Under the pieces are notes generated by a model. That model did no database searches and was not told the DNA's origin. It saw only the letters and a program-made list of their open reading frames with translations. A DNA stretch of 35,089 nt from Candidatus Nanopelagicales bacterium (GTDB lineage: Bacteria > Actinomycetota > Actinomycetes > S36-B12 > CAIYMF01), in the NCBI GenBank assembly GCA_017848795.1, contig JAFIHG010000036.1, forward strand, positions 1-35,089, written 5' to 3'. The translations under genes were made by a program, and so were the position numbers. Shown one piece after another: positions 7,357-34,954 of this stretch; positions within the stretch are counted from its first letter, which is position 1, and each line of letters opens with the position of its first letter.

Positions 7357-10011
7357 TCAGCGTGCGGTGACGTCGACGATGCCGTGGGCGCCGCGCTCGG
7401 CGTCGGACATCACGTGGGTCACGAACGGGTAGTGCCCTGCCTGCGGGAAGGTGAGCTCGACGAACCCGCCCTGGGCCGGCGCGAGATCGAGCGCCTGGCT
7501 GCCTCCGGTACCGCTCTCCGGCCGGCGCAGCAGGTACGCGCCCTCCTTGTAGACCGTGTCGAACTGCCCGCCGACCACGTGGAAGGAGCCGGCGACGTTG
7601 GGCCCGGCGTCGAGCACCCAGATCCGGACCCGTTCCCCGACCCGGGCGCTCAGCTGGGCGTGGTCGTACTGGTTGGCGTATCCGTTGAAGGTCACCAGGT
7701 CCGGCATCTTGGTGGCGACGCGTTCGGGGGGCGCGCTGCCCCCCTCGGGGCCGAGGTACGTCTCGGACTGGACGAGCAGGTACTGCTTGTCCACCGGCGG
7801 CAGGTCCGGCGGGTCGATGACCACGGCACCGAACATCCCGTTGGCGATGTGCAGCGACATCGGCATCGTCGAGCAGTGGTACATCCAGATCCCGCTGCGC
7901 GTGGCGGTGAAGGTGTAGGTCAGCTCCTCGCCGGGGCCGATGGTGCGCATCGGCCGGTCCGGTGCGAGGGCACCGGCGTGGAAGTCGATGGAGTGCCCGA
8001 TGGTCCCGTCGTTGACCAGCGTGACGATGAACTTGTCCCCGACCTTCCCGTGCAGCGTCGGGCCCGGGGCGGTGCCGCCGAAGGTCCAGCGCACCTGGGT
8101 GACCCCCTTGCCGTCGGCGGACGGCGCGACCTGCTGCGGGGTCTCGGTCACCTCGAGCCGCACCCGGTGCACCGTCCCCTGCGGCGCCGGCGCCAGCACC
8201 GGGTCGTACGCCTGGAACGCCGGGCCGGGGTCGGCCATCAGGTCGACGTCACCGGCCGCGCTCGGCCCGCTCGGCGTGGTCCCCATGTCCATCCCGGACA
8301 TGTCGTGACCCCCGGTCGCGGCGGTGCCGGATCCCCCCGGCCCACCGGTCACGTCGACCGCGAACACCATGCCCAGCTGCCGGTGCCCGGCGACCGAGCA
8401 CCAGCCGGCCAGATCCTGCCCGACGACCCCGACGTCGAGGGTCGCCTGCTGGCCGGGGCCGAGCAGCGGCGTGCCCGCACCGTTCTCGAGCACCAGGTCG
8501 TGGGCCATGTCGTCGGCGTTGCGCAGCTCGATCACCAGCCGGTTGCCGGCGGGGACCGTGACGCTCGCCGGGTGGAAGCGCATCCCCTGCATGACCACCT
8601 GCACCGTCGTCGTCTCCCCCGTCGCGGTGACCGAGCCCTGGGCCGAGACCGTCCCGATGCCGGCCCCCGGCGGGTCGGCGGCGACCCCGAGCGTCACCGC
8701 CAGCAGCACCACGGCAAGCCCGATGCCGGCTCCGGCGCGCCGCCGTTGGGCGGCGACCGGGTCCGGCGGCGGGCGGTAGGGCGCGGGGCGCGGCGATTCC
8801 CCCGTGACCGCCGCGCCCCGCAGTCTGCGGGAGGCGAGCAGCGCGCGGACGAGCAAGGGCAGGAAGGTCGCGTACGCGACGAGCAGCACGACCGAGCACA
8901 CGACGCGGACCAGGCTCGGCACCGGCAGCAGGCACACCAGCAACGCCAGGTTCGCGGTGCTGACCCGCCAGAAGGCGCCACGGTCGAGCTCAGCGGTGGT
9001 GAGGCGTACGGCGTTGGGCCCACCACCCAGCACGACCGGCACCAGATAGCTGAGCGCCCCGAGCAGCACCGGCAGCACGAACCCGGCGAGCACCGCCGCG
9101 GTGAGCCACTGCCCACGGCCGATCACCGTCGCCCAGTCGGGGGCGGAAGCGGTGGTGAGCGCGAACGCCAGCAGCGAGCCGCCCAGCCAGAGCACCCCGC
9201 CCAGGACCGACAGGGTCGCGAAACCGGTCGGCGGGCGGACCCTCGCCTCCTGCGCGAACGGGCGGCACCACCACAGGAATCCGGCCAGGTAGCAGACGAT
9301 TCCGGCGGCGACCAGGTAGCGCTGCCCGGCGAGCGCGCCCGCCGCGGCGACGACGATGCCCGCGAGCAGGATCGGCAGTACGCGCCGGGAGGTCAGCTCG
9401 GCCCGCTCCACGATGCGCGTGCGCAGCATGGTGGGCCAGAGGGTCACCAGGGTGCCGATCACGGTCAGCGCCACCCAGCCGAGCAGGTTCACCACCGCGT
9501 GCGCCGCGACGAGGTGCGGGTACGCATCGCCCGGCAGCGAGCCGTGCGTCATCGCCACCCCGAAGCCGACACCGACCGGCAGCAGCAGTCCGGCAGCGAC
9601 GTAGTAGCGCAGCGTGCTCGCGAAGCGCGAGGGCAGCGAGCGGCGCATCCGCAGCAGCAGCGCGACGACGTGCCAGAGCACCGCGGCGACGACCGCCGTC
9701 CCACCGGCGAGGACCGGCGGCCAATGCCCGCCCACGACGCCGACCACGACCGCGACGGCGCCCGCGTTGAGCAGCAGCAGCCGGCTCGCCTCGATGCGGC
9801 GGGACTCCGGCTCGGGCAGGCGCAGCAGCGCCGCCGCGAAGTGCGCGCTCCAGATCAGGATCGCGTTGGTGACCGCACCGAGCAGCAGCAGGTGCACCAT
9901 CAGCCAGCGCGACGCCGGCACGAACCGGTGGTCGACGGCAACGACCAGCAGCGCGAGCAGCCAGGCGACGACGAGCGATCCGGCGCGCAGGTGCCACCCG
10001 GTGCGGTTCAC
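7357..10011 (-). CDS. nirK: Membrane-anchored copper nitrite reductase: polytopic N-terminus, cupredoxin, NirK-type multicopper domain
   Basis: An 884-residue fusion. Residues ~1-450 are polytopic membrane helices with many His (for example 'MTHGSLPGDAYPHLVAAHAVVNLLGW'). Residues ~451-550 form a type-1 copper cupredoxin domain ('MAHDL', then 'WCSVAGHRQLGM', the Cys-x4-His-x4-Met loop). A Met/His-rich linker 'GGHDMSGMDMG' follows. Residues ~600-884 are a copper nitrite reductase: 'HSIDFH' holds the first type-1 His, catalytic Asp and a type-2 His; 'YHCSTMPMSLHIANGM' holds the type-2 His, type-1 Cys, His and Met; 'SFHVVGG' has the catalytic His and 'YPFVTH' the last type-2 His. It should reduce nitrite to NO outside the membrane. 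The GTG start (10009-10011) overlaps the preceding stop by 4 bases, so the pair is translationally coupled. Confidence 0.9.
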   Translation of the reverse strand: MNRTGWHLRAGSLVVAWLLALLVVAVDHRFVPASRWLMVHLLLLGAVTNAILIWSAHFAAALLRLPEPESRRIEASRLLLLNAGAVAVVVGVVGGHWPPVLAGGTAVVAAVLWHVVALLLRMRRSLPSRFASTLRYYVAAGLLLPVGVGFGVAMTHGSLPGDAYPHLVAAHAVVNLLGWVALTVIGTLVTLWPTMLRTRIVERAELTSRRVLPILLAGIVVAAAGALAGQRYLVAAGIVCYLAGFLWWCRPFAQEARVRPPTGFATLSVLGGVLWLGGSLLAFALTTASAPDWATVIGRGQWLTAAVLAGFVLPVLLGALSYLVPVVLGGGPNAVRLTTAELDRGAFWRVSTANLALLVCLLPVPSLVRVVCSVVLLVAYATFLPLLVRALLASRRLRGAAVTGESPRPAPYRPPPDPVAAQRRRAGAGIGLAVVLLAVTLGVAADPPGAGIGTVSAQGSVTATGETTTVQVVMQGMRFHPASVTVPAGNRLVIELRNADDMAHDLVLENGAGTPLLGPGQQATLDVGVVGQDLAGWCSVAGHRQLGMVFAVDVTGGPGGSGTAATGGHDMSGMDMGTTPSGPSAAGDVDLMADPGPAFQAYDPVLAPAPQGTVHRVRLEVTETPQQVAPSADGKGVTQVRWTFGGTAPGPTLHGKVGDKFIVTLVNDGTIGHSIDFHAGALAPDRPMRTIGPGEELTYTFTATRSGIWMYHCSTMPMSLHIANGMFGAVVIDPPDLPPVDKQYLLVQSETYLGPEGGSAPPERVATKMPDLVTFNGYANQYDHAQLSARVGERVRIWVLDAGPNVAGSFHVVGGQFDTVYKEGAYLLRRPESGTGGSQALDLAPAQGGFVELTFPQAGHYPFVTHVMSDAERGAHGIVDVTAR

Positions 10012-11141
10012 GGCACCGCCTGCAGCACCGGCTGCGACGGCGCGCTCGGGGTCGCGCCCGCCGCGCGACCGCGTACGACCGACCACACCGCGATGACGAC
10101 GAACAGCAGCAGCGCGACGATGTTCACTGCGCCGCCGACCTGCCAGGCCCAATCGACCTCGCGCAGGTCACCGACCGCGATGCGCAGCAGCAGCGATGCG
10201 GTGAGCAGCGCGGCCGGGACGTACATCACCGGGTGGTACGGCAGCGGGCGGCGGATCACCGCGGGCAGGATCACCGGCGCGTGCGCCATGATCATCATGA
10301 TCACGAAGCCGAGGAAGACGCCGTGGACGACGGCGTCGTAGCCGAAGCCGCCGGGCTGCTGGCCGAGCAGCAGCCACACCGCACCGGCGACTGCCAGCCA
10401 GGCGTACCCGGTGAGCAGGCAGGCGGCCATGAACCGCGGCAGCCCGGTGCCGCGCACGGTGCGGCGGGCGACGTCGAACCGTGCCAGCCAGCCGACGAGC
10501 GCGAGCAGGGCGGCGCCGAACAGGGCGTAGCCGGCGACCGGCCACAGCAGGGCGACGCCCGCAGCGAGCATCACCGCCGCTGCCGCGCCCACCAGCAGCG
10601 GCGCGGCGCGCGGGCCGAGGACGACGACATGGGCGAGCTCGAGGCGTTCCCCGACGATCGTGAGCACCAGGAACCCGACGAGCCAGGGCAGCAGCGTCGG
10701 CACGCCGACCCCGCTCAGCCAGAGCAGCGACCCGCCGGTGGCGAGCACCGCGCCACCGGCCTGGACGAGGACCGCGTCGGCGGGACTGCGCCGCCACAAC
10801 GGCACGTAGAGCGCGACGAGCGCGGCGCCCCCGACGACGAACAGCGCCCGTCCCACGGCGAGGGGCGCGGGAGTGAGCAGCAACAGGCCACCGACGCCGA
10901 GCGCGGCCGGGGCCAGGTAGCCCCAGCGCCGCCCGAGCGCGACGGCCCGTTCCAGCGCGACGACGGTGCCGACGAACCCCAGGACCAGGAGCATGCCGTG
11001 CACCTCGGGCAGCCGGCTGGTGCTGACCGGCGCCGGGAGTCCGAGCAGCAGCAGCGCCGCATCGAGTCCGGCGAGCAGCGCGATCCCGCCTGGGACGAGC
11101 AGCAGGGTCCGGGCGGGCACCGCACGCGAGGGTTCAGCCAC
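10008..11141 (-). CDS. NnrS-like polytopic membrane protein
   Basis: A 377-residue protein made almost entirely of hydrophobic helices (about 11-12). It carries 'HGMLLVLGFVGT' near the N-terminus and 'VVHGVFLGFVIMMIMAHAPVILPAVIRRPL' near the C-terminus. Such His-containing helices resemble NnrS, a haem- and copper-containing membrane protein linked to NO stress, but similarity is judged by eye. The GTG start overlaps the end of the HTH gene by 8 bases and its stop overlaps the nitrite reductase start, so the three genes form one transcript. Likely helps nitrite/NO metabolism or electron delivery; the exact role is unknown. Confidence 0.75.
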   Translation of the reverse strand: MAEPSRAVPARTLLLVPGGIALLAGLDAALLLLGLPAPVSTSRLPEVHGMLLVLGFVGTVVALERAVALGRRWGYLAPAALGVGGLLLLTPAPLAVGRALFVVGGAALVALYVPLWRRSPADAVLVQAGGAVLATGGSLLWLSGVGVPTLLPWLVGFLVLTIVGERLELAHVVVLGPRAAPLLVGAAAAVMLAAGVALLWPVAGYALFGAALLALVGWLARFDVARRTVRGTGLPRFMAACLLTGYAWLAVAGAVWLLLGQQPGGFGYDAVVHGVFLGFVIMMIMAHAPVILPAVIRRPLPYHPVMYVPAALLTASLLLRIAVGDLREVDWAWQVGGAVNIVALLLFVVIAVWSVVRGRAAGATPSAPSQPVLQAVP

Positions 11142-16630: not shown

Positions 16631-16650
16631 GCGACGTCAGCGGACGTCGC
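16631..16650. terminator. Perfect stem-loop between convergent genes, probable bidirectional terminator
   Basis: GCGACGTC (16631-16638), loop AGCG, and GACGTCGC (16643-16650) form a perfect 8-bp stem. It lies between the stop of the universal stress protein and the stop of the TMADH-like gene, whose stop codon is in the stem. No T-run follows, as is common in actinobacteria. Confidence 0.65.
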
Positions 16651-18697
16651 CGACGCGTTCGCGGCGGTAGGGCAGCGGCACGTCCGGCTGCGCCGTCTCG
16701 ATCTCCATGGCGAGCCGGTGCCCGTCGAAGACGGCCTCGGAGATCATGCGCGGTGACAGGCAGTCGCCGATGCGGTGGACGGCCGCGATGCCTGCGGCGC
16801 GCAGCCGTTCCCCGTCCGCGGTGAGATCGAGGTACAGCGCGTCGTCGGCCACCTGCGAGACCACGGCGACGACGCCGTCGGCGGGCATCGACCACGCGTG
16901 CGCGAACTCGTCGACGCCGAGCACTGCGTCGGGCGTGATCTCGTGGAGCGTGGTGTCGCGGTACGCCCGCACTCCGGCGCCGTGCAGGTGCGCGCGCAGC
17001 GCTGCACCCTCCAGCGTCTGGTCGGACACCGGCGACACCACCGGGAACGGGGTGACGAGCGCGACGTCGTAGCCCTCGCCGGCGAGCAGCTCGGCGACAC
17101 CGGGCGCGACGTAGTAGCCGTCGGTGTCGTAGACGACGACCCGCCGACCCGGCGGCCGGCGTCCCCGGACGAGCACGTCCTCGGGCGTCAGCACGTGCGG
17201 CAGCGTCGCGCCGACCAGCGGCGTGAGCGTCGTGGGCTGCGGAGCCGTCGCCGACCAGTGCGACCCGGTGGCGACGATCACGAGTTCTGCGCCGTACTCC
17301 AGTACGTCCTCGGGGGTGAGCCGGCGCCCGGTGATCACCTGCACTGCCGGCAGCCGCGCGAGCTGCACGAGCCGCCAGTCCAGCACCCGCCCCCAGTCCC
17401 CGAGGGTCGGCAGCCGCCGGGTCCAGGTGAGGCGGCCACCGACCGTCGGTGCCGCATCGACCAGGTGCACCGCGCTGGCACCGCGCCGCGCCAGGACGAT
17501 CGCGCACTCCATGCCGGCCGCGCCGGCACCCACGACGAGGATCGCCCGGTCGGGTTCGGCCAGCGGCGGGAACACTTCGGGGTGCCAGCCCCGCCGGAAC
17601 TCCTCACCGGCGCTCGCGTTCTGGATGCAGCCGACGTGCCCGTACGTCTCCTCCTTCAGGATGCACACGTTCGACCCGGTGCATTCGCGGATCTCGGCGA
17701 GCCGGCCTTCTGCGACCTTGGTGGGCAGGAAGGGGTCGGCGATCGCGGGGCGGGCAGCGCCGATGAGGTCGATCGCCTTGCTGCGGACCAGCGCCGCCAT
17801 CCGGTCGGGGTCGGTGAACCGTCCCACGGTCACGATGGGCTTCGCGGTCGCCTCCCGCACCCGGCCGGTCCACTGCAGTGCGGCGCCCTCGGGGTGGAAG
17901 CGCGAGCTGCCCGAGTCGTGCGGCCAGTCGCCGACGTTGACGTCCCACAGGTCGACGAGGTCGTCGGCGAGGCGGACGAACTCGAGGCCTTCGTCGAGGT
18001 CGACACCGACGCCGTCCCGCCGGTGCACGCCGACCCGGACGGCGATCGCGCAGTCGTGGCCGACCGCGTCCCGTACCCGTGCGAGCGTCTCGAGCCACAT
18101 CCGGGCCCGGCCGCGCAGCGCGCCGCCGTACCCGTCGGTGCGCTGGTTGGCCGCCGGCGACAGGAACTGACCGAGCAGGTAGCCGTGGGCGCCGTACACG
18201 TAGACGATGTCGAAGCCCACATCGCGGGCGGCGAGGGCCGCGTCCACCCACTGCCGCTGCACGCGTTCGATGTCGTAGCTGTCCATCTGCTTCGGGACGC
18301 TGTACGGGACGCGTTCCCCGGCGATCGGCGACGGTGCGAGCAGCGGGCGGCGCGAGACGCCGTTCGTGCTGTCGCGACCGCCGTGGAAGAGCTCGATCCC
18401 GGCCAGCGCCCCGTGGGCGTGCACCTGTTCCACCAGCAACCCGAGGGCCGCCGCGTCGGCGCGGTCCCAGACATCGGTGCTCACGGCGGGCGTCTCGTCG
18501 GCCTCGTCGGAGATCGAGGCGTAGTCGGTGCATACCGCGGCCCAGCCGCCCTCGGCCTTGATCGCCCGGAACGCCGCGTGCGTACGCGGGAGCCGCGTGC
18601 CGAACCCGGACGCGTGCGGCACCTGGTAGAAGCGGTTGCGCAGCACCTTCGGTCCGATGCGCACCGGCTCGAACAGCACGGCGTGGCGCGGATCCAT
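16637..18697 (-). CDS. Trimethylamine dehydrogenase-like FMN/FAD oxidoreductase with altered Fe-S motif
   Basis: A 686-residue protein that follows trimethylamine dehydrogenase (TMADH) throughout: 'HAVLFEPVRIGPKVLRNRFYQVPH' at the N-terminus, the OYE-type barrel ('GFDIVYVYGAHGYLLGQFLSPAANQRTDGYGG'), 'CARP'-like 'GAARPAIADPFLP', the cluster region, then 'AILVVGAGAAGMECAIVLARRGA' for the second nucleotide. The cluster motif is Cys339-x2-Ser342-x2-Cys345-x11-Cys357, so one of four Cys ligands is Ser (codon TCG). The Cys that carries covalent FMN in TMADH is Ala29 here, and the Trp after the cluster is lost. A different amine, betaine or enoate substrate is likely. Start ATG 18697 is set by homology; its ribosome site is weak. 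Confidence 0.85.
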   Translation of the reverse strand: MDPRHAVLFEPVRIGPKVLRNRFYQVPHASGFGTRLPRTHAAFRAIKAEGGWAAVCTDYASISDEADETPAVSTDVWDRADAAALGLLVEQVHAHGALAGIELFHGGRDSTNGVSRRPLLAPSPIAGERVPYSVPKQMDSYDIERVQRQWVDAALAARDVGFDIVYVYGAHGYLLGQFLSPAANQRTDGYGGALRGRARMWLETLARVRDAVGHDCAIAVRVGVHRRDGVGVDLDEGLEFVRLADDLVDLWDVNVGDWPHDSGSSRFHPEGAALQWTGRVREATAKPIVTVGRFTDPDRMAALVRSKAIDLIGAARPAIADPFLPTKVAEGRLAEIRECTGSNVCILKEETYGHVGCIQNASAGEEFRRGWHPEVFPPLAEPDRAILVVGAGAAGMECAIVLARRGASAVHLVDAAPTVGGRLTWTRRLPTLGDWGRVLDWRLVQLARLPAVQVITGRRLTPEDVLEYGAELVIVATGSHWSATAPQPTTLTPLVGATLPHVLTPEDVLVRGRRPPGRRVVVYDTDGYYVAPGVAELLAGEGYDVALVTPFPVVSPVSDQTLEGAALRAHLHGAGVRAYRDTTLHEITPDAVLGVDEFAHAWSMPADGVVAVVSQVADDALYLDLTADGERLRAAGIAAVHRIGDCLSPRMISEAVFDGHRLAMEIETAQPDVPLPYRRERVGDVR

Positions 18698-23564: not shown

Positions 23565-24752
23565 TCATCCGGTGACGCGCAGCAGCTCCCGGGCCGCGAC
23601 GATGCGCTGGATCTGGTTCGTGCCCTCGTAGATCTGGGTGATCTTGGCGTCCCGCATCATCCGCTCGACCGGATAGTCCTTGACGTACCCGTACCCGCCG
23701 ACGACCTGCACCGCGTCGGTCGTGACCGCCATCGCGGTGTCGGAGGCGACGCACTTGGCCGCGGCCCCGAAGTAGGTCAGGTCGGCGTCGCCGCGCTCGC
23801 TCTTGGCCGCCGCGACGTAGACCAGCTCGCGAGCGGCGGTCACCTTCATCGCCATGTCGGCGAGCAGGAACTGCAGGCCCTGGAAGTCGGCGATCGGTCG
23901 CCCGAACTGCTTGCGTTCCTTGGCGTATCCGACGGCGTAGTCGAGCGCGCCTTGCGCGATGCCGACCGCCTGGGCACCGATGGTGACGCGCGTGTGGTCG
24001 AGCGTCGCCATCGCGATCCGGAAGCCTTCTCCCACCTCGCCGATCCGGCGGCTGTCGGGGATCCGGACGCCGTCGAAGTACAGCTCGCAGGTCGGGCTGC
24101 CTTTGATCCCGAGCTTCTTCTCCGGCGCGCCGACGCTGAAGCCCTCGTCGTCGGCCTCCACGACGAACGCGGTGATGCCGCCCCGCGTGCGCTTGTCCGG
24201 ATCGGTCACGGCGAGCACGGTGTACAGCCGGGAGACGCCTGCGCCGGTGATCCAGCGTTTCGTCCCGTCGAGCACCCAGTCCTCGCCGTCGCGGACCGCG
24301 CGGGTGCGCATGCTGCCGGCGTCGCTGCCGGCTTCGGGTTCGGAGAGGGCGTAGCTGAACATCTCCTCGCCGCTCGCCAGTCGCGGCAGGTAGGTCTCAC
24401 GCAGCTGTTCGGTACCCGCGAGCAGCAGCGGCAGCGAGCCGAGCTTGTTCACCGCCGGGATCAGCGACGTGGCCGCGCACGCGCGCGCGACCTCCTCGAT
24501 GACGATGCAGGTCGCCAGGGCGTCGGCGCCGGCACCGCCGTACTGCTCCGGTACGTGGATCGCGTGCAGGTCGCTGCGTACGAGCGCGTCGTACACGTCC
24601 CACGGGAACTGCGCCGTGGCGTCGATCTCCGCGGCGCGCGGGGCGATCTTGTCGGCGACGAGCGCGCGCACGCTCTCCCGGAGCAGCTCGTGCTCCGCGG
24701 TCGGTCGGTAGAGGTCGAAATCCGGGTTGGCCGGGCTCCCCGTGCTGGACAC
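23565..24752 (-). CDS. Acyl-CoA dehydrogenase
   Basis: A 395-residue FAD enzyme of fatty-acid or branched-chain acyl-CoA oxidation that passes electrons to ETF. The FAD motif '[19 protein letters not shown]' and 'KRWITGAG' are intact. The C-terminal signature '[35 protein letters not shown]' includes the catalytic Glu376 in the usual position for short/medium-chain enzymes. GTG 24750-24752 follows GGAGGAA. Substrate chain length is not evident. It is divergent from the UDP-glucose dehydrogenase gene with an 86-base gap. Confidence 0.95.
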
Positions 24753-32858: not shown

Positions 32859-32880
32859 GGTGTCTCCTCTCCTGAGTGAC

Positions 32881-32916
32881 CAGTATTCGCAGTATTCGAA
32901 GTAAACGCAATAGTCG
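32881..32916. repeat. Four tandem 9-bp repeats in the divergent promoter region
   Basis: Units in exact 9-bp phase: CAGTATTCG (32881), CAGTATTCG (32890), AAGTAAACG (32899), CAATAGTCG (32908). The first two are identical; the third and fourth match at 6 and 7 of 9 positions. The array lies 22-58 bases before the antitoxin start and about 90-125 bases before the TOTE gene. It is AT-rich against the surroundings and likely binds the antitoxin cooperatively. Confidence 0.75.
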
Positions 32917-33007
32917 CCGATCCAGTCCTAGCCTCGTCGCCCGAGATGAGAGGTGGGAGGTCGGCCGTCCGGTCGACTTCAGCGGCGCTACCGGCAGGAT
33001 TGACGTC

Positions 33008-34954
33008 GTGAGCGACCTGCAGGCCGAACTGGAGAGCTTGAGGCGCGAGAACGCGCGACTGCGCAAGTTGCTCAAGCTAACGGATGCGGAAGTCGCGCCC
33101 GCTCGCGGCACCCAAGCGGCGTGGTTCGACAAGGCGCCGGGCTCCGTGGATGCTCGGTCGTCCTCGCAGGTCAAGGTCGAGTTCTACGCCGCACTGTTCG
33201 GCGCAAGACGGGACATCTATGCCGTCCGCTGGGACAATGCCCGCACCGGCAAGTCCGGGTGGATGCCCGCAGTCGAGGGCGGGTGGCGCAAGGGCCGAAG
33301 AGCCTCCGACATTCGACACCTGCCGCTGACGCCTGAGGTGCTCGCTGCGCATCTGACCGGCGACGTCCACATCGGCCTATATCCGATGCTCCCCGGCGAC
33401 CAGACCTGCTGGCTCGCCGCCGACTTCGACGGGCAAGCAGCGATGCTCGACGCGCTCGCCTACCTGAAGGCGGCCCGAGCTGTAGCCGCACCCGCCGCCC
33501 TGGAGGTGTCCCGGTCCGGAATCGGCGCGCATGTCTGGATCTTCTTTACCGACCCCGTACCAGCGGCAACCGCGCGCCAACTCGGGACCTCACTGGTCCG
33601 CGAAGCCATCGCGATCCGCGGCCGGATGGATCTGCGCTGCTACGACCGGCTCTTCCCGTCCCAAGACGTTCTCCCCGGACGAGGTCCAGGCAACCTCATC
33701 GCCGCACCACTCCACGGCAGATCACGCAAGCTCGGCACGACGGTGTTCCTCGACCTGGCCACGCTGGAGCCCTTCGACGACCAGTGGGAATACCTCTCCA
33801 CCCTGGAGCGCCTCACACCAAAGCAAGCTACGAGGCTCGCGTCTGCGCTCCGCGAGCCGACAGTCGGGGCACACGTCGACCGCGCACAGCCTGCCCGGTC
33901 GACCAGGACTCAGCCAAATCCGGCACCGATCGTCCATCTGACGCTCGACGGCACGGTGAGGATTCCCGGGGCGGAGCTGAGCCCCTCGCTCTACGCGACC
34001 TTGAAGCACGCGGCGTCGACGTACAATCCAGAGTTCTACAACCGCCAGCGCCGCCGGCAGTCGACGTGGAACGTCCCGCGCATCGTCACCTCCTACGACG
34101 AGACGCTCGATGACCACCTCGTCCTCCCGCGCGGACTACGCGACACCGCGACGCGACTCATCGAGGGAGCCGGCAGCAAGGTCGAGGTCGACGATCAGCG
34201 GGTCGCCGGAGATCTGTTGCGCCTCTCGCCGACCTTCGAGCTCAGACCGCAGCAGCAGGAAGCAGTGGAGGCCGTACTGCCGCACGAGTTGGGACTCTTG
34301 GTCGCTCCGCCCGGCTCTGGAAAGACCGTCATGGCCTGCGCCGTCATAGCCCAGCGAACCGTCTCCACGCTGGTGCTGGTCGACCGCAAGACGCTCGCCG
34401 ACCAATGGCGCCGCGAGATCACCGACATCCTCGGCACGAAGCCGGGGCAGCTCGGCGGCGGCCGATCCAAGCTCACCGGCATTGTTGACATCGCCACTTT
34501 ACAGACGCTCGCCCGCCGAACCGACCTCGCCGACAAGCTCGGCGCCTACGGCCAGGTCATCGTCGACGAGTGCCACCACATCCCGGCAGTCGCGTTCGAG
34601 ACCGCTGTCCGCACCATCCCAGCGCGCTACTGGGTCGGGCTCACCGCCACACCTTATCGGCGCGACGGCCTCGATGACCTGATCGGCTTCCAACTCGGCC
34701 CCATCCGCCACACTTTCATGCATGCCGACCCCGACACGCTCGAAGGTGCCAACGCCGCGCGGCCACGCCCCGAACTCATCGTTCACCCCACAGCATTTCA
34801 GTTGTCGGAACCAGTCGACTTCGCCAGCCCGGGTGCGATCGCGAGCGTCCACGCGGCACTCGCAAATGACGGGGCTCGAAACGAGCAGATCCTTGCCGAT
34901 GTGGTCGACGCTCTGAGGCGCGGACGACACTGCCTTGTCCTGGCTCAACCCTGA
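33008..34954 (+). CDS. TOTE-type archaeo-eukaryotic primase / superfamily II helicase, C-terminally truncated by an IS element
   Basis: A 648-residue remainder. It begins with a leucine zipper ('LQAELESLRRENARLRKLLKL', in two blocks), then an archaeo-eukaryotic primase domain with the metal pair Asp139-x-Asp141 ('AADFDGQ'), His175 in 'SGIGAHVW', and 'DRLFPSQDVLPGRGPGNLIAAPLHG', which I recognise from TOTE conflict systems. The helicase N-terminal half follows: Walker A 'APPGSGKT' (Lys439), 'DECHH' (Asp520-Glu521) and 'GLTATP'. The frame ends just after 'RHCLVLAQ', where family members continue into the helicase C-terminal domain. Motifs V-VI and any nuclease domain are missing, so activity is doubtful. 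GTG 33008 is preferred over the in-frame 32876 start, which would cross the repeat-side region. Confidence 0.85.
   Translation: MSDLQAELESLRRENARLRKLLKLTDAEVAPARGTQAAWFDKAPGSVDARSSSQVKVEFYAALFGARRDIYAVRWDNARTGKSGWMPAVEGGWRKGRRASDIRHLPLTPEVLAAHLTGDVHIGLYPMLPGDQTCWLAADFDGQAAMLDALAYLKAARAVAAPAALEVSRSGIGAHVWIFFTDPVPAATARQLGTSLVREAIAIRGRMDLRCYDRLFPSQDVLPGRGPGNLIAAPLHGRSRKLGTTVFLDLATLEPFDDQWEYLSTLERLTPKQATRLASALREPTVGAHVDRAQPARSTRTQPNPAPIVHLTLDGTVRIPGAELSPSLYATLKHAASTYNPEFYNRQRRRQSTWNVPRIVTSYDETLDDHLVLPRGLRDTATRLIEGAGSKVEVDDQRVAGDLLRLSPTFELRPQQQEAVEAVLPHELGLLVAPPGSGKTVMACAVIAQRTVSTLVLVDRKTLADQWRREITDILGTKPGQLGGGRSKLTGIVDIATLQTLARRTDLADKLGAYGQVIVDECHHIPAVAFETAVRTIPARYWVGLTATPYRRDGLDDLIGFQLGPIRHTFMHADPDTLEGANAARPRPELIVHPTAFQLSEPVDFASPGAIASVHAALANDGARNEQILADVVDALRRGRHCLVLAQP

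Follow-up and report, generated by a model that had tools for sequence, protein, structure and literature searches.

TMADH-family gene and its active site

The window, that is, the whole stretch of 35,089 nucleotides that was analysed, carries on its reverse strand a gene for an iron-sulfur flavoenzyme of the TMADH family (Table 1), with a universal stress protein (Usp) gene on one side and a mechanosensitive channel (MscS) gene on the other. Its third-position GC content of 0.92 is like that of the neighbouring genes. Over its full length, the encoded protein combines an Oxidored_FMN barrel (Pfam, residues 8-332) with C-terminal nucleotide-binding domains (Pyr_redox_2 from residue 361), as in the TMADH/histamine dehydrogenase group, and 304 of 665 aligned residues are identical to TMADH. 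Sequence comparison with solved structures ranks TMADH, 6l6j and two histamine dehydrogenases highest; the top NCBIfam model, mycofact_OYE_2, scores 385 bits, far below its cut-off of 793.

An AlphaFold2 model of the protein (mean pLDDT 80.8) matches the folds of the same enzymes. TMADH 2tmd (Z 45.4, rmsd 5.4, 662 residues aligned) and its C30A mutant 1djq (Z 44.6, rmsd 5.5, 665 aligned) are tied, followed by 6l6j (Z 43.4, rmsd 4.7, 632 aligned) and the histamine dehydrogenases 3k30 (Z 43.4, rmsd 5.2, 643 aligned) and 6de6 (Z 42.8, rmsd 5.2, 648 aligned). The cluster loop, residues 340-374, is modelled with pLDDT below 50, so the predicted structure gives no support for a particular cluster state.

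Table 1. Features of the TMADH-like gene, in window positions; counts refer to the 28-row branch described below.
Feature	Position	Strand	Basis or conservation
TMADH-family iron-sulfur flavoenzyme	16637..18697	-	Open frame, 686 aa, ATG start, stop included; TMADH match 597-598 bits
Cluster motif Cys339-x2-Ser342-x2-Cys345-x11-Cys357	17627..17683	-	Alignment to TMADH
Ser342 (codon TCG), place of the second cluster Cys (TMADH Cys348)	17672..17674	-	Ser/Ala/Ile in branch
Glu349, place of TMADH Trp355 (Asp in histamine dehydrogenases)	17651..17653	-	Alignment
Ala29, place of TMADH Cys30 (6-S-cysteinyl FMN)	18611..18613	-	Alignment
Tyr168 and His171 of the catalytic triad (TMADH Tyr169, His172)	18185..18196	-	28/28
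Trp258 (TMADH Trp264) and triad Asp261 (TMADH Asp267)	17915..17926	-	Trp 28/28; Asp 27/28, one Asn
Tyr59 (TMADH Tyr60, substrate pocket)	18521..18523	-	26/26 readable rows of 28

Alignment to TMADH places Cys339, Ser342, Cys345 and Cys357 at Cys345, Cys348, Cys351 and Cys364, which bears out the cluster motif given in the earlier note, together with its reading that the FMN-attaching Cys is absent and that the Trp just after the cluster is lost. In place of the four Cys of a [4Fe-4S] site, the protein therefore has three Cys and a Ser, a pattern with the second Cys replaced that is a feature of [3Fe-4S] proteins; the Cys of a 6-S-cysteinyl FMN is likewise missing. The Tyr-His-Asp triad (Tyr168/His171/Asp261) is kept. 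The same holds for two of the three pocket residues of the aromatic bowl of TMADH (Tyr60, Trp264 and Trp355); the third is now Glu349, and the complete bowl of TMADH proper is not found. Because the four-Cys and flavin-Cys features are both absent, the protein was filed as a variant of the TMADH/histamine dehydrogenase group.

Compared with the solved members of this group, the window protein shows a mosaic of shared and divergent features. With TMADH (1djn, 2tmd; C30A mutant 1djq) it shares homology over the whole length, the triad, Tyr60, Trp264 and three of the four cluster Cys, but it differs in the three replaced residues, in a Thr rather than an Ile after the first Cys, and in a last cluster spacing of x11 instead of x12, although both histamine dehydrogenases also have x11. 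The latter (3k30, 6de6) resemble it in architecture, triad and an acidic residue at the Trp355 place (Asp358/Asp354), but unlike it they have four Cys, Cys30, and a residue other than Tyr at the Tyr60 place. In PMC10180351, which names the triad and pocket residues of histamine dehydrogenase, Asp358/Asp354 appears as a sensitive position, the active clones of a saturation library carrying no substitution there. The 6-hydroxypseudooxynicotine amine oxidase HisD (6l6j)/NdpC belongs to the same family, and 6l6j has a natural Ala at the Cys30 place; unlike the window protein, it has four cluster Cys, Val at the Trp355 place and Glu at the Tyr60 place. The four solved group members compared here (1djn, 3k30, 6de6, 6l6j) have four cluster Cys. 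A literature search that covered few subscription papers found no three-Cys or 3Fe member of the group, and nothing on 6-HPON HisD and FMN.

The second cluster cysteine among relatives

Searches of the genome's relatives, its order, its phylum and a second class, together with one genome-collection scan, gathered 96 relatives. Eight fragments shorter than 500 aa were left out before tree building, and are also excluded from the cluster motif counts; with two solved structures added, 90 rows entered a tree built by a quick method without the Cys30 and cluster columns. The window protein falls in a branch of 27 rows (SH-aLRT 100), or of 28 when L038 is included (SH-aLRT 89). The 28-row branch belongs to Actinomycetota and is surrounded by four-Cys relatives. 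Within it, the second cluster Cys is replaced by Ser in 21 rows, by Ala in six and by Ile in one, while the other three cluster Cys are present in all 28. Parsimony assigns no change to these three columns and five to the second-Cys column, the median column having four; 159 of 674 alignment columns show no change at all. Glu occupies the Trp355 place in 24 of the 28 rows.

A later class search supplied ten further rows, which were held out from the tree. All four at 61-63% identity carry Ala30/Ser348/Glu355, and all six at 40-46% identity have four Cys; since L167 matches L034 at every aligned column, three of those four proteins are new. Over the resulting 98 aligned rows (L034 = L167 duplicate included), the other three Cys are present in every row and the second position is Cys in 64, Ser in 26, Ala in six, and Asn and Ile in one each. 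The residue after the first cluster Cys is Thr in 31 of the 34 non-Cys rows and Ile in all 64 four-Cys rows.

Membership of the branch and the motif as described are virtually certain. The earlier note had proposed aligning close homologues, in which four Cys would mean a single mutation or a sequencing error; the nearest relatives also lack the second Cys, and its replacement is a feature of the clade. The relatives are mostly metagenome-assembled genomes, a source in which errors of sequencing or assembly, or decay of the gene in just one genome, might be suspected. Nevertheless, the branch comprises 31 distinct proteins with differing codons for Ser (TCG, TCC) and Ala (GCG, GCC), and the frame is open with the triad kept, so that such an origin has a negligible chance; a sequencing error or single mutation is ruled out by the 31 distinct proteins. 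Separately, the TMADH-like gene of L013/L179 (G059) is interrupted by a frame break that contains a TGA; its close relatives L131 and L132 have intact copies.

Outside the branch, L046 has Asn and L088 has Ser at the second-Cys position, and these are events separate from it. A single clade of all 30 non-Cys rows was rejected at a p-AU of 1.5e-61, a value that is not clean, as the group was named after the quick tree had been seen and long rows such as L088 were in play; its rejection indicates that the second Cys was lost more than once. L088 (G812) also has its catalytic His changed to Ala, Tyr174 to Met and Trp264 to Ser, which suggests a different function. Six iron-sulfur flavoenzymes from the same order, about 30% identical (L016-L018, L020, L025, L029), also lack the second cluster Cys, with CVGASMC (Ala) in five and CIALNDC (Leu) in L029, so this ligand has been lost again outside the TMADH branch.

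The flavin-attaching Cys follows a pattern of its own. L133 and L134, which branch off first, combine Ser at the cluster with a retained Cys30, and L038 and L046 keep Cys30 too; hence, in this branch, loss of the cluster Cys probably preceded that of the flavin Cys. Some four-Cys rows, conversely, lack Cys30 (Gly in L086, Ser in L110, Ala in L169 and 6l6j), which makes the two losses separable. Judging from these alignments, the 6-S-cysteinyl FMN is not common to the whole TMADH-type group, the solved 6l6j also being without it.

State of the iron-sulfur cluster

The cluster has probably been remodelled in the branch, not lost, and its retention on three Cys appears very likely from the pattern of conservation. 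Drift among Ser, Ala and Ile beside three invariant Cys fits a cluster held by those three, although invariant Cys could in principle serve a structural role or bind another metal. The earlier note had considered that the cluster might be absent; FMN would then pass its electrons straight to an acceptor, or to O2 as an oxidase. That a single branch has lost both a cluster ligand and the FMN-attaching Cys would suit such a change, but the three other Cys, without a single change where the median column has four and present throughout the branch and the whole set, argue against it and leave it very improbable.

The same note had also proposed a Ser ligand. Ser342 would bind a [4Fe-4S] cluster through its oxygen, and the potential of the cluster would be lowered, as the predominance of Ser in the branch (21 of 28 rows) and its independent appearance in L088 might indicate. 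Against this, close relatives have Ala (six of 28) or Ile (one of 28), and the repeated interchange of Ser and Ala, within the five state changes of the branch, makes Ser unlikely as an obligatory ligand. This coordination is accordingly judged improbable for the window protein, while Ser may be a ligand in some branch members.

The 3Fe form that had been raised alongside it fares better. The M. marinum ferredoxins with the motif CXX?XXC(X)nCP have the second Cys of CxxCxxC replaced variously and the others kept, and the isolated proteins, a Ser variant included, held [3Fe-4S] both aerobically and anaerobically, as described in PMC6237146; they are unrelated small proteins, and the analogy is one of cluster pattern only. 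On this analogy, [3Fe-4S] seems somewhat more probable than a [4Fe-4S] cluster with an open site. The latter would be site-differentiated: as in aconitase, three Cys would hold the cluster and one iron would be open to water, a thiol or a small molecule. Such a cluster would be stable in the cell but would lose that iron during purification. It has the same three-Cys pattern to recommend it, with Ser, Ala, Ile and Asn all tolerated, and the review PMC8097209 describes the labile iron of aconitase and 3Fe forms that can be purification artefacts. However, the TMADH family offers no sign of a role for an open iron, and the ferredoxins with this pattern yielded [3Fe-4S] with and without air (PMC6237146), so we regard an open site as unlikely, though not negligibly so.

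It is conceivable, if doubtful, that the change is adaptive: the electron-exit cluster would have turned into a three-Cys form (open iron or 3Fe), with Thr beside the first Cys fixed together with it and the same Cys dropped several times independently within the family. If this were true, the change would reset the potential or let the cluster bind a small molecule.

Gene neighbourhoods and probable reaction

No pathway-like gene adjoins the TMADH-like gene in the window, where 20 of the 27 other called frames were scanned. An acyl-CoA dehydrogenase (ACAD) at 23565-24752 is 32-38% identical to the ACADs near L125 and L039, which is too weak to make it a pathway partner. Among the 31 distinct branch members, genes for a PotABC-type importer, for DMGDH-family proteins or for quaternary-ammonium-type (group-V-type) Rieske oxygenases adjoin the TMADH-like gene in six; the remaining 25 have no such genes in the flanks examined, some of which span only about 1.5 kb. 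A gene context conserved across the whole branch was not found, most members being without pathway-like shared neighbours.

In L131 and L132, PotBC-type permeases and two DMGDH-family (DAO plus GCV_T) genes surround the gene on one strand. L013/L179 has a Rieske oxygenase, a PotB piece and a DMGDH-family gene nearby, L125/L180 a Rieske oxygenase, an ACAD and PotABC, L168/L178 a DMGDH-family gene and PotABC, and L039 a divergent Rieske gene, an ACAD, IclR and a 3HCDH-4HBT fusion. This last gene (L039:10173-11756) encodes a 3-hydroxyacyl-CoA dehydrogenase fused to a thioesterase domain, and such fusions include L-carnitine dehydrogenase. A Rieske gene thus adjoins or lies near three of the 31 members (L039, L125/L180, L013/L179), and the Rieske proteins of L180, L179 and L039 have a Tyr-x2-Cys-x2-Cys motif; PMC10952381 describes its Cys pair for the quaternary-ammonium Rieske oxygenases of group V. 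Four-Cys relatives also lie near such genes: L047 and L102 have Rieske and PotBC genes, L101 a Rieske gene alone, and L137 PotBC alone. The association therefore probably predates loss of the cluster Cys, and the pathway does not explain that loss.

Apart from a 33% identical reductase on contig C19, the genome from which the window comes (G000; 3.4 Mb, 57 contigs) shows no second TMADH-like gene at E 1e-30. Its contig C38 carries PotA, PotB and PotC close to a Rieske oxygenase that has the CxxC pair; the best NCBIfam match of this oxygenase is GbcA, at 186 bits and well below the cut-off of 670. C38 also has a DMGDH-family protein, 64% identical to that of L132, and ETF-domain genes lie on contig C7. 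These pathway-type genes are unlinked to the TMADH-like gene.

Oxidation of a methylated amine is a likely function, to judge from the retained triad and two pocket aromatics and from the genes linked to some branch members. In the scheme that we propose, an amine would enter the barrel, and the FMN dehydrogenase would oxidise its N-methyl (or another C-N) bond, two electrons passing to an FMN held without a thioether bond. The iminium product would hydrolyse to an aldehyde and the demethylated amine. Electrons would leave singly through the three-Cys cluster, most likely [3Fe-4S] (or [4Fe-4S] with one iron lacking a protein Cys), probably to ETF. TMADH is a model for such transfer, its route running from flavin to cluster to ETF as outlined in PMC8097209, and the window protein would, by analogy, follow the same route.

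The likeliest step would be conversion of a tertiary to a secondary amine, after a quaternary-ammonium Rieske oxygenase, in stepwise N-demethylation, by analogy with the order GbcA then DgcA of glycine betaine catabolism (PMC12093977). DgcA resembles the window protein by its description there, as a flavin oxidoreductase that acts after a Rieske oxygenase and demethylates dimethylglycine; unlike it, DgcA uses the Fe-S partner DgcB and FixAB, none of which was seen beside the window gene. We infer the cluster type, substrate class, acceptor and pathway order, and for the explanation as a whole, a TMADH-type amine N-demethylating enzyme with a three-Cys cluster, the chances seem about even.

That the substrate is not trimethylamine had been deduced in the earlier note from the cluster and the flavin bond. 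These losses do not dictate it, since the two can occur apart: 6l6j is without Cys30 but has all four cluster Cys, and L133 and L134 have Cys30 together with a cluster Ser. Trimethylamine is still likely not the main substrate, on other grounds: the pocket Trp355 has given way to Glu, and the linked genes indicate other methylated amines.

The natural series of Cys, Ser, Ala, Asn and Ile at one ligand, with or without the flavin-Cys bond, offers a probe of the roles of the fourth ligand and of the covalent bond. A further gain is a probable step of methylated-amine metabolism in Actinomycetota that are known chiefly from metagenomes. Should the cluster prove to be [3Fe-4S], members of the branch would be misannotated whenever they are automatically labelled [4Fe-4S] TMADH.

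Two further frames were observed in the window. A forward-strand frame at 32876-34954 encodes a TOTE-type archaeo-eukaryotic primase plus helicase, with a third-position GC content of 0.79 against about 0.92, and is perhaps a recent arrival. On the reverse strand, positions 7357-10152 encode a protein of 931 aa whose C-terminal half matches cupredoxin and multicopper-oxidase domains; a LytTR two-component pair adjoins it.
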